From Candidatus Methanoperedens sp. (GTDB taxonomy: Archaea; Halobacteriota; Methanosarcinia; Methanosarcinales; Methanoperedenaceae), in contig JAPMTS010000054.1 of the NCBI GenBank assembly GCA_026552955.1, positions 1 through 44,837 of the forward strand: DNA of 44,837 nt, written 5' to 3'. Positions 5,231 to 44,668 of the stretch are shown in pieces (within the stretch, counting starts at the first letter, position 1; each line of letters starts with the position of its first letter). Under the pieces are notes generated by a model. It was not told the origin of the DNA and ran no database searches. It was given only the letters and a program-made list of their open reading frames with translations. A program made the translations under genes and the position numbers.

Positions 5231-6496
5231 ATGTCCGAAAAATTTGACGTAATAATCGTGGGCGCAGGCCCTGCCGGTTCTGCAGCCGCATATTCCCTGG
5301 CAAAAATGGGATTTAATGTCCTGATAATCGAGCGCGGTAAATATCCCGGCGCCAAGAACGTAATGGGAGGCAGGATGTATGCATATGCATTGAACAGGTT
5401 GATCCCGGAATTCTGGAAAGAAGCGCCAGTAGAACGAAAAGTTACCCGTGAAAAATTGACTTTTCAGGGTGAAAAAGCATCTTTTACCCTGGATTTCATG
5501 GATGAAGAGCTTCGTGAACCCCCAAACAGTTTTACAGTGCAGAGGGCAAAGTTCGACCAATGGTTCGCGAATAAAGCAGTTGAGGCGGGAGCTACATTAG
5601 TTCCTGGCATCAGGGTTGATGATCTCATATGGGAAAACAAAAAGGTCGTTGGAATCGTTGCAGGAACTGATAAGATCGAAGCAAATGTGGTAATTGCTGC
5701 AGATGGCGCTGTTTCCCTCATAGCAGAAAAAGCCGGGCTTAAGAAATTCGATGTTAAACAATTCGCGCTTGGTATGAAGGAAATTATAGAACTACCTGAG
5801 AAAACGATCGAGGAGCGGTTCAACCTGGCAAGCGGGGAAGGAGCAGCACAGCTATTTGTAGGCCAGTGTACAAAAGAGATACCGGGCGGAGGTTTTATTT
5901 ATACCAACAAATCGAGCCTTTCGGTCGGGATCGTTATATACATAGACAGGCTCATTAAAAAGAAAATTGAATCCCATAACATCATCCTGGAGTTTAACAC
6001 AAATCCTGAGGTGGCAAGACTGATAGAAGGCGGGAAAATTCTTGAATATTCAGCACATGTGATCCCTGAAACCTCACGAAGTGGACTTTTCATCGATGGT
6101 TTGCTCGTTGCAGGCGATGCAGGAGGATTGGTGGTAAATAGCGGACTCACCCTACGCGGAATGGATATGGCCATCGCTTCAGGTGTGGCGGCGGCTGAGG
6201 CTGTGAAAAAAGCTGCTGAAAAAAATGATTTTTCAAAGGAAATCCTTTCTTATTATGAAGAACTGCTAAAAAGAGATTTTGTGCTTCGGGATAAAGAAAC
6301 TTTCAAAAAAGCACCGGAATTTTTACAGAATGAAAAGCTGTACACACTCTATCCTGATTTTGTTTGTAGGCTCTTTCACAGGCTTACCCTGGTGAATGGA
6401 CCAAAAAAAAGGGTATTTGATGAAATATTAGAAGAATCAGAGGGTAAAAGGATCCAGATGTTCCTGGATATGTTAAGAGGTATGAGGGCACTATGA
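5231..6496 (+). CDS. fixC: FixC-type electron-transfer flavoprotein:quinone oxidoreductase
   Basis: This 421-residue FAD protein of the geranylgeranyl-reductase/ETF-QO superfamily takes electrons from ETF to a membrane quinone. The N-terminus has the dinucleotide motif VIIVGAGPAGSAAAYSL, followed by the family's GAKNVMGGRMYAY. The middle shows VVIAADGAVS and the second FAD motif GLLVAGDAGGLVVNSG. The start at 5231 is an in-frame ATG immediately before SEKFDVIIVG; upstream starts would overlap the hydratase. It lies 7 bp after the hydratase and overlaps fixX by 4 bp. In nitrogen fixers FixABCX bifurcates electrons, but here the link to beta-oxidation genes favours quinone reduction. Confidence 0.92.
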   Translation: MSEKFDVIIVGAGPAGSAAAYSLAKMGFNVLIIERGKYPGAKNVMGGRMYAYALNRLIPEFWKEAPVERKVTREKLTFQGEKASFTLDFMDEELREPPNSFTVQRAKFDQWFANKAVEAGATLVPGIRVDDLIWENKKVVGIVAGTDKIEANVVIAADGAVSLIAEKAGLKKFDVKQFALGMKEIIELPEKTIEERFNLASGEGAAQLFVGQCTKEIPGGGFIYTNKSSLSVGIVIYIDRLIKKKIESHNIILEFNTNPEVARLIEGGKILEYSAHVIPETSRSGLFIDGLLVAGDAGGLVVNSGLTLRGMDMAIASGVAAAEAVKKAAEKNDFSKEILSYYEELLKRDFVLRDKETFKKAPEFLQNEKLYTLYPDFVCRLFHRLTLVNGPKKRVFDEILEESEGKRIQMFLDMLRGMRAL

Positions 6497-9360: not shown

Positions 9361-9432
9361 GCCCCGATGGGGTAGCGGATATCCTTTGAGATTGCGGATC
9401 TTAAGACCCGGGTTCAATTCCCGGCCGGGGCG
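9361..9432 (+). tRNA. tRNA-Arg (anticodon GCG)
   Basis: The 72 bases fold as a cloverleaf. The acceptor GCCCCGA pairs with CCGGGGC, with one A-C mismatch at the seventh pair. The D arm contains TAGCGGAT. The anticodon stem TGAGA/TCTTA holds the loop TTGCGGA, with anticodon GCG at 9394-9396, which reads CGC (Arg). The T arm is CCGGG-TTCAATT-CCCGG and the discriminator is G. No CCA is encoded, as usual in archaea. The anticodon stem is weak (one GC pair and one GT) and the 7-66 mismatch is unusual, so it may be drifting. The identity rests on the anticodon. Confidence 0.85.
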
Positions 9433-36215: not shown

Positions 36216-36914
36216 ATGCAGGAATATAAGATAAAGATCCTTGATATGCAAAAAGATGAAAGGCCGCGCGAGAGGCTGATAAAGAACGGCGCGTCGGCAT
36301 TGAGCGATTCTGAACTTCTTGCAATAATCCTGAGGACGGGTTCAAAGCAGGAAAATGTCATAAACCTCTCCCAGAGGATCTTAAAAGAATACAATATTAA
36401 ACAGCTCTCACAGGCAAATCTCAAACAATTAATGAGGATACATGGTATCAAGGAAAGCAAAGCTGCGCAGATAGCAGCCTGTTTTGAGATAGCACGGCGC
36501 CTGGAGTCCTTCAAGGATGGGGGAAAACAAAAGATCAGCTCTCCTGAAGATGTTTACAGGCTTATCTATCCGAAAATGAGGGAGCAGAAAAAAGAACTTT
36601 TTATCGAACTATGCCTTGATACAAAAAATCAGGTAATCAGGGAGGAAATAATTTCCGTTGGTTCATTGAATGCAAATATCGTGCATCCCAGGGAAGTATT
36701 CAAACTTGCTTTGGCAGAATCGGCAGCACATATAATAGTGGTCCATAATCATCCCTCCGGCGACCCGGCACCAAGCAGGGAAGATATCGAAATCACAAAA
36801 AAACTGGCACAAACCGGAATTATTATGGGGATCACCCTTCTTGACCATGTAATAATTGGCGACGGACGGCATTTCAGCATGAAAGAGGCGGGACATATCC
36901 AGAACAGGGAGTAA
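36216..36914 (+). CDS. radC: RadC-family JAB/MPN protein
   Basis: A 232-residue protein (UPF0758). The N-terminal helix-hairpin-helix part is ERPRERLIKNGASALSDSEL and MRIHGIKESKAAQIAA. The C-terminal JAMM metal site has Glu in REEIISVGSLN, His177-Asn-His179-Pro-Ser-Gly (HNHPSGDPAPSREDI) and Asp190. These look like intact metalloprotease or nuclease residues. The cellular role of RadC is still unsettled. It is first in a tight plus-strand run with the mobA remnant, fdhD and mobB. Confidence 0.93.
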   Translation: MQEYKIKILDMQKDERPRERLIKNGASALSDSELLAIILRTGSKQENVINLSQRILKEYNIKQLSQANLKQLMRIHGIKESKAAQIAACFEIARRLESFKDGGKQKISSPEDVYRLIYPKMREQKKELFIELCLDTKNQVIREEIISVGSLNANIVHPREVFKLALAESAAHIIVVHNHPSGDPAPSREDIEITKKLAQTGIIMGITLLDHVIIGDGRHFSMKEAGHIQNRE

Positions 36915-36915
36915 C

Positions 36916-37125
36916 ATGGCGTATTCTGCAATTATCCTTGCAGGGGAAAAGGAAAACGCATGGGTGAAGACACAGAAAGCTATCAGGAATGGAAACAAAA
37001 AGATCCTTGCTCTCATGCATAGGATGAATGTTAATTATGTGGAAATCGAAGAAATCAGGAAAATTGATCCTGATTTAAAAACATTTATCAATATCAATAC
37101 ACTAGAAGATTTGGATCAATTCTGA
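36916..37125 (+). pseudogene. mobA: mobA remnant, in-frame internal deletion
   Basis: The 69-residue frame begins like MobA (molybdenum cofactor guanylyltransferase), MAYSAIILAG, and ends like it: RNGNKKILALMHRMNVNYVE, then TFININTLEDLDQF. The central 120 or so residues are missing, including the GGxSxRMGxxK nucleotide loop (here EKENAWVKTQK) and the catalytic core. MobA is normally about 200 residues. It is placed one base after radC and one base before fdhD, exactly where a functional mobA would be expected. It cannot be active as it stands. Confidence 0.7.
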
Positions 37126-37126
37126 C

Positions 37127-37879
37127 ATGTATATAATAAATTATTCTGCACTTGAGCTTAAAGGCGGTATATCTCATAAAAAAAACCATATGGTAGCGGT
37201 AGAGAATACGGTAGAGCTTTTTATAAACAAAATCCCTATCGCATCAATACTTTCAACTCCGGAAATGTTAAAAGAGCTGGCCATCGGATATCTGATATGC
37301 GAAGGCCTCGTAAAAAACCCAGATAGCATAAGGAATTTGAAAATTGATGGGAACCGGATTTATGCCGTGATCGAACAGTCCGAACATCTTGAACTCTGGC
37401 ATGAATTAAGGTCATCGGGATGCGTGGGTGTCAGGTGGGAGGAGAATGAGAATATTTCGATCGATTCTGATACAAGATTCAGTGCAAATTCAATTGAGGA
37501 GAGCCTTGGGTTCCTGGAATCCGATATATACAGGGAAACGCATGGAACGCATGCTGCATGTCTCATAAATGTGAGAGGGGAATGCGTGGCTAAAGCCATA
37601 GATGTGGGAAGACACAATGCTTTTGATAAAGTTGTGGGATATGCATATCTTAATGGGATAGAGGTGAGGGAGCATTTCATCATATCCACGGGACGCCAGT
37701 CGGCAGGCATGGTGTTAAAGGCTGCCCGGGCCGGGATCCCGCTTGTTGCCACAAAGACAGCACCTCTTAATTCAGGAATAGATGCCGCCCAGAGGTGCGG
37801 AGTATGTCTTGTATGTTTTGTTTCAAATGATCGGATCTCGGTTTTTTCTCATCCTGAGAGGCTTCTATGCCACGTGTAA
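37127..37879 (+). CDS. fdhD: FdhD sulfurtransferase for molybdoenzyme maturation
   Basis: FdhD carries sulfur from a cysteine desulfurase to the Mo/W-bis-PGD cofactor of formate dehydrogenases and related enzymes. It has 250 residues. Family marks are ENTVELFINKIPIASILSTP, LAIGYLICEGLV, DVGRHNAFDKVVGYAYL, FIISTGRQSAGMVLKAARAG and VATKTAPLNSGIDAAQRCGV. The loop that carries CxxC in E. coli has only Cys99 (SSGCVGVRW), as in some other FdhD proteins. ATG follows the mobA stop by one base. Confidence 0.93.
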   Translation: MYIINYSALELKGGISHKKNHMVAVENTVELFINKIPIASILSTPEMLKELAIGYLICEGLVKNPDSIRNLKIDGNRIYAVIEQSEHLELWHELRSSGCVGVRWEENENISIDSDTRFSANSIEESLGFLESDIYRETHGTHAACLINVRGECVAKAIDVGRHNAFDKVVGYAYLNGIEVREHFIISTGRQSAGMVLKAARAGIPLVATKTAPLNSGIDAAQRCGVCLVCFVSNDRISVFSHPERLLCHV

Positions 37880-38328
37880 TTTGTATTGTGGGGACGAGCA
37901 AGACCGGAAAAACAAAATTAATGGAAGAATTGATAAAAAACCTGAAGGGTCGCGGCCTGAAGGTAGGGGCTTTAAAATACCATAAACACGGGGATTTTGA
38001 AATAGATGTAAAAGGCAAAGACACATGGAAATATGCAAAGGCCGGCGCAGATACCGTTGCAATAACCTCCTCCGTGAAATTTGCCGTTATCAAGAACGAA
38101 AATGTAATGAGTGATATTGACGGGATATGTGAGACCTATTTTTATGATACTGATCTTGTCCTTGCGGACGGATTCACTCAGTCCGACAAGCCCCGGATCA
38201 TTGTGGTTGAGAATGAGAAGGATGCGGGAATTTTCAAAAGGGGATGCAGGGTGATATCCATTACTGATGAAAAGATCAAAGATTTTAAAAGTGTTTTTCA
38301 AAATGTGCTTGAATTCCTGGCAACATGA
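37867..38328 (+). CDS. mobB: MobB, molybdopterin-guanine dinucleotide accessory GTPase
   Basis: The 153-residue P-loop protein CIVGTSKTGKTKLMEELIKN (Gly9-Thr16) assists guanylation of the molybdenum cofactor. It shows the MobB pattern GLKVGALKYHKHGDFEID, DTWKYAKAGADTVAI and DLVLADGFTQSDKPRIIVVE. It overlaps fdhD by 13 bp; GAGAGG lies upstream. With mobA broken, its usual partner would have to come from elsewhere in the genome. Confidence 0.92.
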   Translation: MPRVICIVGTSKTGKTKLMEELIKNLKGRGLKVGALKYHKHGDFEIDVKGKDTWKYAKAGADTVAITSSVKFAVIKNENVMSDIDGICETYFYDTDLVLADGFTQSDKPRIIVVENEKDAGIFKRGCRVISITDEKIKDFKSVFQNVLEFLAT

Positions 38329-41255: not shown

Positions 41256-44200
41256 TCAGGATATTTTCTTCTGTATCCTTTCTATTAATCCAAGAGGACC
41301 AACATTACCTTTCTGATGGTACCCGGATGGAGCATGACATGCTTTGCATGTGGTCATACCATGCATGAAATCACTTTTAATAAGAGAAGGATCAACCACC
41401 CTTACGATGCCGCTGTCGTTCGAATGACAGGCTCCGCACAAATACACATTGCTCCGATTCATATCCTTCTGGAAGTGGCATGTCCAGCAGTCATTGTTGG
41501 TAACATTTCCGGGACCATCGCTAATATTGATATCTGCATGCCTTCCAAATAGGGAAACATTTGCATCACCCGGTGAATGGCATGAGGTGCAATTAGTGCC
41601 TCCTATTCTCATAATATTGTGGTCTCGTTTATCTGTGCCTCCATGGCAATCCAGACATGCCGAATTATTGCCTTTTCCTATCGCATGAAAATTATGTGGC
41701 GGCAAATCCGGCCCTGACAAAGGCGGTTCACCAGGAAGCGAATGACAATCCGTACAGAAGGATTCAGACTTCCATAGGTGTGATTTGCTGTCTTCATTCA
41801 ATATTATATCCAGATTTGTTCCATTTGATCTTAATGTGAAGCCTGCATCAGTATGACACACTAAACAGCCTTTGTTATTGAAAGGCAAGCCGGTAGCCGT
41901 ATCATTTACAAGACGTGCATGAGCACTTGTTCCGATCTTGCTGCCTATAAAAACAATGTTAAAGTAATATCCAGGAGGCACCTCAACTTCATCAGGCACA
42001 TTATGGGCTGGAGATTCCCAACCTACCAGCAAAGAGTGGCAATCTGTACACTTTGTGACGCTGATCTCATGAGGTGTTGGCAATGGGTAAACAGGATAAT
42101 TTATCCATAGGTTATGACATCCAACATAACAAAATAGTCCTGTACCATTAATCAGGGTATTTTCTTTATTGTGTCCGAAATCCCTGATCTTCTGTGCATG
42201 GCAGTTGATACAGACAATGTTCGGATCCCTGTTTCCACCATCAAATGTTCCAGGGTATCTCCCTGGTGCAAAGGGATTGGAATGTCGTGAAAACATATAT
42301 TCTTCCTGGTTAACTTTAAATAGCGAATTATCAGAAACAGTTGTATCCTTCATATGCGTCATATTCTGCCCGGTAGATGCAGGGCCAATGGCGTATCCAT
42401 CAACAATTTCCTGACCTATTTTTCGGGCTGGATTAGTGTAAATAGTATAACCTGACCTGATATGAGGAGGCTGTGTATCAATATCCCGTCCATGACAGTC
42501 AATGCAACCATATGGATTTGTGGTTCTGTCCGGATGGTCCCGCGGTTGAGTCCCATCTGACTGGTGACACCCCCAGCAAACCCTGTTATCAGTACGTAAT
42601 CCAGGTGGAACGATAACATCAAAGTTGAGATTGCGATGCACCGAATTATTTAAGATATTAACATTTACCTGTTTTGTGCTGATACCTCCATTGTCATGGC
42701 AGGATATGCAATCCGGTCCCCCTCCACGGGTTACATTATGCGTATCGCCGTGACATGAAAGGCATTGTGTTTGATTGTATTGTGAAAAATACGGTTCGCT
42801 TATTGGATGGTTTGCGGGCGCCATAGCATGGCAATACTGGCAGGTTTTTACAGTAATATTGTGCATCGAATTATGGCACATCCTGCACTGAATATCAAGA
42901 GTTCCATCCCCATTTGTATCAGCATGTGCAAAACCAGGATTCCAATCAGGGATTGTGTATTTTGAATATCTTTTCTCCTCAGGAATAGAATCTTGATTAT
43001 GACAATCGTTGCATTCCGGAATAATAATATTTGGTTTTATTCCCATTGGATAATTGCTGATAATAGTATAGTTTATTGTACCTTCCTGCAATCTTGTTAA
43101 TTTGGCCAACCATTTACCATTATTGGGATTTGTGATATTCATAACAAGAGGTTCACTAAGATATTGTGTTTTCTCACAGGGAATATTTTCCGAAGGCCCG
43201 CATGGTGTCTGCAATCCTGTTGAACTATTATCTACCGGACCAATTAAATATAATGAAACATAACCTGATGTTGGTGAAATAAAATCATCTCCAATGACCC
43301 TGATTTCCAAAGCCTGAGTCCCTTCTTCATTGGTTCCATCAATATTTATTTCATACATATCTGAAACCGATAAGGATGATGTAAATGTGGGATTATAGCT
43401 CCCAAGCGTCCCCTGGAAGATAGTCATTTCCCCGGACCAAGGACCTGGTCCAAAATGGCATTGTACACAGGTAATATCTGAATGCTTACCCGATGAGAAG
43501 CTGATATTATTACCGTAAAGGGTATAGTTTGCGATATTTGCGATATCTGTTCCTATACTATCATGAATAAAAGAAGTGTGACATTCTTCGCATAGAGCAA
43601 CAGTTCTATGGGAATAGATATTATATGGTGGTTGCGAATAATTTGAACCTTCCAGGAATCCACCGCTGTGCCCATATTCCATATCATGGACATGCATGGG
43701 GTTTGCGTTAACCGGGGGGCCATATAATGGAGGTTCCAATAATGGATAAAAGCCTTTTGAGCCCCCATGGCATTTGTAAGCGCAGTATTCGTACTGTTCT
43801 CCATCCAATTCCCCATGAATGAAACTTGTTTCTAAATTATCAAGTTTTCTATTGTGACATTTCTGGCATCCATAAATAGTAGTCTGGAATTGGGATGCTG
43901 CTGTAACTTGTTTACCATTTATCATGGAATCATAAGTGACCGTATAATTACCTGAATATTGATCTCCAAAGGAATTGTATATGAAATATCCAGAATATGT
44001 ACCTGGATGATCCATTTCTTCTTGGAGATATACAGGTTGTACCCGTTGAGTATACATCAATGGTGTCGAACCGTCCATAGGATCGGGAGAATATATCTGA
44101 TTTACATGTGGATATATGACATCTACCAGCGGTATAAGACCTGAAACAGGACTTATATTACCTGAAGTTTCATTCAACAACATCAATGTTATGAGATTCT

Positions 44201-44414
44201 TTTGCTTTCCTGCTATGTCATCTCCACCCCACCATGACCAGCCAGTCAACCCATTACCAAAGAAAGGACCAATTTGTAACGGTGTTTGTCCTATCTCAAG
44301 AATAGCAGTATAATTGGATTCCGCCTTTGCGGGAGTCACCATACAAGACATTAAAATCCATATCGAAAAGATCAAAAACACATTAGAAAAAATCTTAAAA
44401 TTATATTTAGACAC
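41256..44414 (-). CDS. secreted multihaem c-type cytochrome, 21 haem motifs
   Basis: From GTG 44414 the protein has 1052 residues: signal peptide (FKIFSNVFLIFSIWILMS, cleavage near AKAES), then 19 CxxCH and two CxxxCH sites (CAYKCH near 43777, CYVGCH near 42124). A haem-poor Ig-like stretch separates the fourth and fifth CxxCH sites. There is no C-terminal membrane helix, so it is secreted or pseudo-periplasmic and probably moves electrons between the membrane and outside acceptors. The GTG follows GGAAGTGA and starts a clean signal peptide. The longer frame to 44519 would put a charged segment first. Confidence 0.9.
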   Translation of the reverse strand: MSKYNFKIFSNVFLIFSIWILMSCMVTPAKAESNYTAILEIGQTPLQIGPFFGNGLTGWSWWGGDDIAGKQKNLITLMLLNETSGNISPVSGLIPLVDVIYPHVNQIYSPDPMDGSTPLMYTQRVQPVYLQEEMDHPGTYSGYFIYNSFGDQYSGNYTVTYDSMINGKQVTAASQFQTTIYGCQKCHNRKLDNLETSFIHGELDGEQYEYCAYKCHGGSKGFYPLLEPPLYGPPVNANPMHVHDMEYGHSGGFLEGSNYSQPPYNIYSHRTVALCEECHTSFIHDSIGTDIANIANYTLYGNNISFSSGKHSDITCVQCHFGPGPWSGEMTIFQGTLGSYNPTFTSSLSVSDMYEINIDGTNEEGTQALEIRVIGDDFISPTSGYVSLYLIGPVDNSSTGLQTPCGPSENIPCEKTQYLSEPLVMNITNPNNGKWLAKLTRLQEGTINYTIISNYPMGIKPNIIIPECNDCHNQDSIPEEKRYSKYTIPDWNPGFAHADTNGDGTLDIQCRMCHNSMHNITVKTCQYCHAMAPANHPISEPYFSQYNQTQCLSCHGDTHNVTRGGGPDCISCHDNGGISTKQVNVNILNNSVHRNLNFDVIVPPGLRTDNRVCWGCHQSDGTQPRDHPDRTTNPYGCIDCHGRDIDTQPPHIRSGYTIYTNPARKIGQEIVDGYAIGPASTGQNMTHMKDTTVSDNSLFKVNQEEYMFSRHSNPFAPGRYPGTFDGGNRDPNIVCINCHAQKIRDFGHNKENTLINGTGLFCYVGCHNLWINYPVYPLPTPHEISVTKCTDCHSLLVGWESPAHNVPDEVEVPPGYYFNIVFIGSKIGTSAHARLVNDTATGLPFNNKGCLVCHTDAGFTLRSNGTNLDIILNEDSKSHLWKSESFCTDCHSLPGEPPLSGPDLPPHNFHAIGKGNNSACLDCHGGTDKRDHNIMRIGGTNCTSCHSPGDANVSLFGRHADINISDGPGNVTNNDCWTCHFQKDMNRSNVYLCGACHSNDSGIVRVVDPSLIKSDFMHGMTTCKACHAPSGYHQKGNVGPLGLIERIQKKIS

Positions 44415-44668
44415 AATTAATTCACTTCCATCATAGAACCAAATCCTATCCTTTCTTTGCAATCCCGTTTTCTTGAATAACAAATATAGACTTACTTTTG
44501 GGATAATAAATATATCCATCTCCCCATGATGACTACTAAAATAAACAATATTCTACCTTATTTTTGAATAATCAAGAAAATCTATACTTTCCATATAAAA
44601 AGACATTTTAATAAATTCAAAAACAAAATTTAAAGTAAAATAGAACCGAAAAATTTATTTTGGAGGAA

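Follow-up and report, generated by a model that had tools for sequence, protein, structure and literature searches.

Molybdenum cofactor guanylyltransferase (MobA) is represented by the models TIGR02665 and NF001457 and by the solved structures 3ngw and 1e5k. The N-terminal nucleotide-binding core of the enzyme carries the LAGG loop together with the GPLAG and DMPF stretches. In prokaryotes, a resident gene may undergo xenologous displacement, in which a homologue gained by horizontal transfer assumes its role while the resident copy decays. The relevant passages of PMC6650914 describe MobA as essential and MobB as non-essential for the formation of bis-MGD. For Methanoperedens, passages of PMC8561730 suggest at least three horizontal acquisitions of respiratory NarG-like molybdopterin oxidoreductases; those passages discuss neither cofactor genes nor the loss of a resident mobA, and the terms "moaA" and "cofactor biosynthesis" are absent from the main text of that paper. 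Among the papers listed by literature searches on Methanoperedens and molybdenum cofactor genes, no title or abstract opening reported such a mobA displacement.

The window, i.e., the whole stretch of 44,837 nucleotides analyzed here, corresponds to contig C9 in the draft genome G000 (2.48 Mb in 54 contigs, 95% complete). It contains an operon with the gene order radC-mobA-fdhD-mobB of the Methanoperedens genus, in which the place of mobA is occupied by an open frame of only 69 codons (Table 1). The radC, fdhD and mobB genes around this frame were found to be open and conserved, each over the cut-off of its model, in agreement with the earlier note on this DNA. Among the five mobB-like matches listed for G000, the operon mobB is the only intact stand-alone gene; two of the other four represent a single relic on contig C26 (see below), and two are mobB-moaE fusions. 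Downstream of the operon (41256-44519, minus strand), the window also encodes a protein of 1087 residues with many CxxCH motifs, seen by eye, which is apparently a large multihaem cytochrome.

Table 1. Features of the radC-mobA-fdhD-mobB operon in the window
Feature	Coordinates	Strand	Evidence
radC, intact, first gene of the operon	36216..36914	+	NF000642, 263 bits, over cut-off; 96.6% identical to G005
mobA relic head (start codon and residues 1-10)	36916..36945	+	Alignment with G005, G024, G006, G004 and G017
Lesion 1: frameshifting loss of 1 nt within the LAGG loop	36943..36946	+	Alignment
mobA DNA past lesion 1, in the wrong frame	36946..36965	+	Alignment
Lesion 2: joint of a net 383-nt loss, original frame restored	36963..36970	+	GPLAG and DMPF stretches gone
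mobA relic tail (about 51 C-terminal codons and stop)	36970..37125	+	NF001457 positions 144-192; 82% identical to G005
fdhD, intact	37127..37879	+	TIGR00129, 195.5 bits, over cut-off
mobB of the old pair, intact	37867..38328	+	TIGR00176, 100 bits, over cut-off

The 69-codon frame (36916-37125) resembles MobA at both of its ends. Residues 18-68 correspond to the C-terminal end of the 200-position model NF001457 (E 9.6e-7), with a score far under the whole-protein cut-off of the model, as expected for a fragment. At the other end, residues 1-10 can be aligned with the start of the full-length mobA genes of five relatives. The nearest of these, G005 (FeB_1), whose fdhD is 91% identical to that of G000, carries a full-length mobA at the same place, and the relic tail matches this orthologue over 50 residues in a tblastn comparison. 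A chance similarity of the frame to MobA was ruled out by this match together with the synteny. An RNA element was also considered; at gathering thresholds the window yielded only a tRNA at 9361.

Relative to the operon mobA of G005, the relic is 384 nt shorter, by way of two lesions. The loss of 1 nt in a short run within the LAGG loop shifted the frame, and the second lesion removed a net 383 nt; since the two losses add up to 384 nt, the frame closes again after lesion 2. Consequently, frame residues ∼11-18 come from MobA DNA translated out of frame. The earlier note had pictured the first ten residues of MobA joined directly to the last fifty or so, which describes the two ends correctly but is incomplete as to the second lesion and the frameshifted middle. 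At the joint, 8 nt (GTGAAGAC) match part of the interior of the G005 gene, so that the exact position of the joint is ambiguous, the outcome being compatible either with one deletion and a small change at the joint or with two deletions. In total, residues 1-10 and about the last 51 residues are left; the missing part amounts to about two thirds of the enzyme and contains the nucleotide-binding core with its LAGG, GPLAG and DMPF stretches. The proposal that a full mobA once stood here is confirmed, and the orthologous position and disabling lesions identify the operon mobA of G000 as a pseudogene.

The earlier note raised the question of who makes the guanine dinucleotide cofactor, implying that no maker was left, and advised a search for another mobA in the genome. 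A search for MobA-like domains in G000 revealed 12 places, eight of them over the cut-off, and the best (C26:23121-23717) is an intact, full-length relative of MobA, termed mobA2 here; the puzzle fails because of this second gene. The mobA2 product contains both the MobA-like NTP transferase domain (PF12804, 123 bits, over the cut-off) and the C-terminal half, covering positions 4-194 of 200 in NF001457 and 1-185 of 186 in TIGR02665, and it matches the solved MobA 3ngw over 6-197 (E 1e-25). In the alignment it retains the LAGG, GPLAG and DMPF stretches. It differs from typical members in remaining under the NCBIfam equivalog cut-offs for MobA (124 of 164 and 105 of 152 bits). The mobA2 product would presumably transfer GMP to molybdopterin and thereby make the guanine dinucleotide cofactor. 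G000 has clients for the cofactor: formylmethanofuran dehydrogenase, whose subunits A, B and D are encoded in two sets, and a TtrA-like oxidoreductase of 1073 residues. The second-best place, a gene on C28, was rejected as a substitute MobA: it is CobY-like, matching best with TIGR00454 and a CobY model (both under their cut-offs) and not with the MobA models.

On C26, mobA2 follows a mobB-moaE fusion and precedes a broken mobB (mobB2), which has stops and two missing stretches. This mobB2 is open in G013, G022, G030 and both copies of G023. As the operon mobA and the cassette mobB2 are the broken members, each of the two pairs in G000 has lost a different gene. A further mobB-moaE fusion occurs in this genome on C36. 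The possibility that C26 is a foreign contig was dismissed, as its argG is closest to that of G005 (94%) and follows the species relation. A gene further along (L091:13875-15575) was found in only 4 of 34 genomes, and that side of C26 is therefore accessory.

The state of the operon was analyzed further across the family, in which 32 of 34 genomes were matched by an FdhD search and 30 loci were read. Two genomes (G008 and G032) gave no fdhD match at 1e-10, and in two others (G014 and G026), both of which have a full mobA, fdhD was in pieces or cut. A full-length mobA was located beside fdhD in 25 of the 30 loci. The operon of G015 is divided between two contigs (L097, L098), one carrying radC-mobA and the other fdhD-mobB, mobA having moved together with radC. 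In G000 the gene is broken, as alignment with the full-length genes of its relatives established, and no mobA was found at the operon place in G030, G022 and G023. In the latter two genomes, radC is followed directly by fdhD, the start of which (ATGGCGTAC) resembles that of mobA itself, as if the deletion had fused the start codon of mobA to fdhD; in G030 a short spacer lies between radC and fdhD. The losses have thus left different scars. The ATGGCGTAC stretch stands right behind the radC stop at ∼1485-1510 (fdhD orientation) of L037 (G023) and L038 (G022).

Two explanations that dispense with a decaying gene were weighed against these data. It is very improbable that the short frame is an artefact of assembly, in which a full mobA was collapsed or mis-joined, for example by recombination with the C26 copy. 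The genome is indeed a draft metagenome assembly of 54 contigs, but the tail derives from the operon copy (82% identity to the operon gene of G005 versus 55% to mobA2), two separate lesions are present, and no long repeat occurs at the joint, the sole match of at least 8 nt to the inner G005 stretch being the one of 8 nt. Moreover, mobB2 is broken as well, on a different contig. Hardly credible, in turn, is the view that the 69 residues form a functional short protein or that the frame was kept open to couple the translation of radC and fdhD. The frame does run from start to stop with the operon spacing preserved, and 384, the net number of nucleotides lost, is divisible by three; yet two random indels would leave an open frame perhaps once in five times by chance (a rough estimate, not computed), and a protein of this kind would lack the nucleotide-binding core. 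A conserved 69-residue MobA-like protein, which according to the earlier note would have spoken against a truncated gene, was not encountered: of the 30 loci read, only that of G000 has a short form, the 29 others comprising 25 with a full mobA, the relocated gene of G015, and G030, G022 and G023 with radC adjoining fdhD. Production of a short peptide from the open relic frame is possible.

The origin of the cassette was examined by means of a MobA tree of 41 rows, including seven outgroup rows picked by hand. The five operon loci that lack a full mobA (G000, G030, G023, G022 and the fdhD locus of G015) were not included, the mobA of G015 was taken from its new place, and a 35% match (G025:C26) was left out. 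The six cassette copies are united in a single clade (100/100) that is separate from the operon copies and branches deep among the MobA proteins of the family. Within this clade, the copy of G000 groups with those of G013 and G023 copy a (98/93) rather than with that of G030, the closer relative at the species level; forcing it together with G030 gave a borderline result (p-AU 0.05). The birth of mobA2 from an operon copy of the G000 lineage was rejected, since a tree joining the G000 cassette with the operon copy of G005 had a p-AU of 2e-7. The two cassettes of G023 (L093 on C60 and L094 on C100) belong to different subtypes; the mobB-moaE fusion is present in only one of them, and their mobA2 genes are 74% identical.

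Silent distances between the mobA2 genes were compared with the values for native genes of each genome pair. Between G000 and G013 the distance is 0.24, versus 0.90-2.25 for radC, fdhD, atpA and atpB, and between G000 and G023 copy a it is 0.27, versus 2.08 to saturated for the same genes; the lowest values are thus about as small as the native distances between G000 and its sister G005 (0.26-0.43). Distances to G022 and G023 copy b amounted to 0.81-0.82, versus native values of 1.91 to saturated. In view of the trees and the distances to G013 and G023 copy a, the cassette looks to have been acquired horizontally. No match above 53% identity was found outside the family, among the matches listed for 237 genomes of the class, and the cassette therefore seems to circulate within the family. 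A virus-borne cassette was also considered, but no relative was detected when viral contigs were scanned.

An ancient duplication within the genus, after which both pairs descended vertically and were lost differentially with no recent horizontal transfer, is an improbable alternative to such an acquisition. It would accommodate the deep branching of the cassette clade and the partly common surroundings of the cassettes (G022 C35 and G023 C100; tauE in G013 and G007), and the silent distance between the mobA2 genes of G000 and G030 (0.67, within the native range of 0.59-1.01) would, taken alone, fit vertical descent. It is contradicted by the silent distances among the cassettes of G000, G013 and G023 copy a, which are several-fold smaller than the corresponding native distances, and by surroundings that otherwise differ among the six cassettes. 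In addition, G005 has no mobA beyond its operon copy at E <= 1e-20, and the genes of C26 beyond argG have no counterpart in the 19.9-kb stretch around argG of G005, apart from one weak match (35%) to an ABC transporter.

The imported mobA2 is under purifying selection, with a dN/dS of 0.175 between G000 and G013. The tail of the operon mobA, compared with that of G005, displays a value of 0.33, versus 0.06-0.12 for the flanking genes, and the one measured piece of the mobB2 relic is near neutral (0.93). When changes were polarised to the G000 branch, the mobA tail showed two silent and four replacement changes, and the flanking genes 32 and 13, respectively (Fisher p 0.087), so that the excess of replacement changes in the tail is only suggestive.

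The occurrence of the cassette and the loss of the operon mobA were then compared. The operon mobA was lost in four of the five cassette holders and in none of the 25 other loci, which include G015 with its moved mobA and G007 with a dead cassette (Fisher 1.8e-4, a value that ignores descent). On a RadC+FdhD tree, built from two genes of the operon itself, the cassette requires four changes and the operon mobA loss three, all in cassette holders; the count of three losses rests on this tree, since the AtpA+AtpB tree does not group G022 and G023 with support. Among the independent pairs, three differed in the same direction, none in the opposite direction and one showed no difference (p 0.25), and with only four such pairs the association cannot reach significance. 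Two copies of atpA are present in G002 (C30 and C159; 97% and 88% identical to that of the window genome), one of which groups with G004; contamination of this assembly is possible, and the place of G002 in trees based on atpA and atpB is unsure.

In G013, the fifth holder, a full-length operon mobA is kept in the presence of the cassette; its branch is twice as long as that of the sister G017 (0.30 vs 0.15), and the operon mobB was not found in the stretches searched. The reverse outcome is apparent in G007, in which the operon pair is intact and a dead cassette, reduced to a stop-containing mobA2 tail and a frameshifted mobB2, lies elsewhere (L104, C31, ∼5343-5903) beside tauE, a neighbour it has in common with the cassette of G013. 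A lone mobB2-like fragment of ∼57 residues in G004 (L105, C5, 5505-5675), a genome without mobA2, is possibly another scar of the cassette.

The surroundings of the cassettes suggest how they may have moved. That of G013 adjoins a DMSO-reductase type II cluster (alpha, beta and ethylbenzene-dehydrogenase-like subunits), in a region that also contains cytochrome c and cupredoxin genes, moaA, moeA, FmdE and tauE. The neighbour of this cassette is thus a cluster of respiratory molybdoenzymes, the group considered in the passages of PMC8561730. C26 of G000, by contrast, carries none of the three PF00384 molybdoenzymes of that genome. Copy a of G023 is near an NrfD gene, a nitrate-reductase-delta-like chaperone and an IS66 transposase gene, with a formate-dehydrogenase-like alpha subunit ∼11 kb away. 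One gene each was tested near the cassettes of G022 and G030, and neither is a molybdoenzyme. Genes on one side are common to G022 C35 and G023 C100; besides these and the shared tauE, the surroundings differ. The cofactor genes may thus have travelled along with horizontally acquired molybdoenzymes.

Taken together, the 69-codon frame is, with high confidence, the decaying relic of the operon mobA in a genome that received a horizontal cassette, in which reciprocal loss has left mobA2 and the native mobB. The cassette, consisting of the mobB-moaE fusion, mobA2 and mobB2, would have entered the lineage from within the family, providing the cell with two mobA-mobB pairs, so that one copy of each gene would have been free to decay. 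The old operon would then have lost mobA by frameshift and deletion, and the cassette mobB2 by stops and two missing stretches, although we infer the order of these events. In the end state, the cell would have one working mobA (imported, on C26) and one working stand-alone mobB (native, in the window), and MobA2 presumably works with the native MobB.

We regard this as gene displacement in progress, a familiar type of event of which the present case is a new and unusually clear instance. As in other xenologous displacements, the acquired homologue appears to have taken over and the resident copy decays; in contrast to these, a two-gene pair was resolved reciprocally, with the survivors at different loci, and several stages are visible among close relatives. 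An apparent gap in an essential pathway thereby becomes a datable gene replacement, and the case serves as a warning that calls of gene absence from one operon of a draft genome can mislead. More speculatively, cofactor-synthesis genes in Methanoperedens might ride on islands of respiratory molybdoenzymes and repeatedly overwrite the housekeeping mobA-mobB pair; mobile islands would then set the maker of a cofactor essential to methane oxidation, through formylmethanofuran dehydrogenase, and the mosaic of G000 would imply that imported MobA and native MobB are interchangeable. Within one genus, genomes are found with the resident pair only, with the cassette beside a remaining operon mobA, with a mosaic of both, with the imported pair only, and with the resident pair and a dead import. 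These stages constitute a natural series for asking how a cell settles on one of two duplicate cofactor genes, and whether MobA and MobB must co-evolve.
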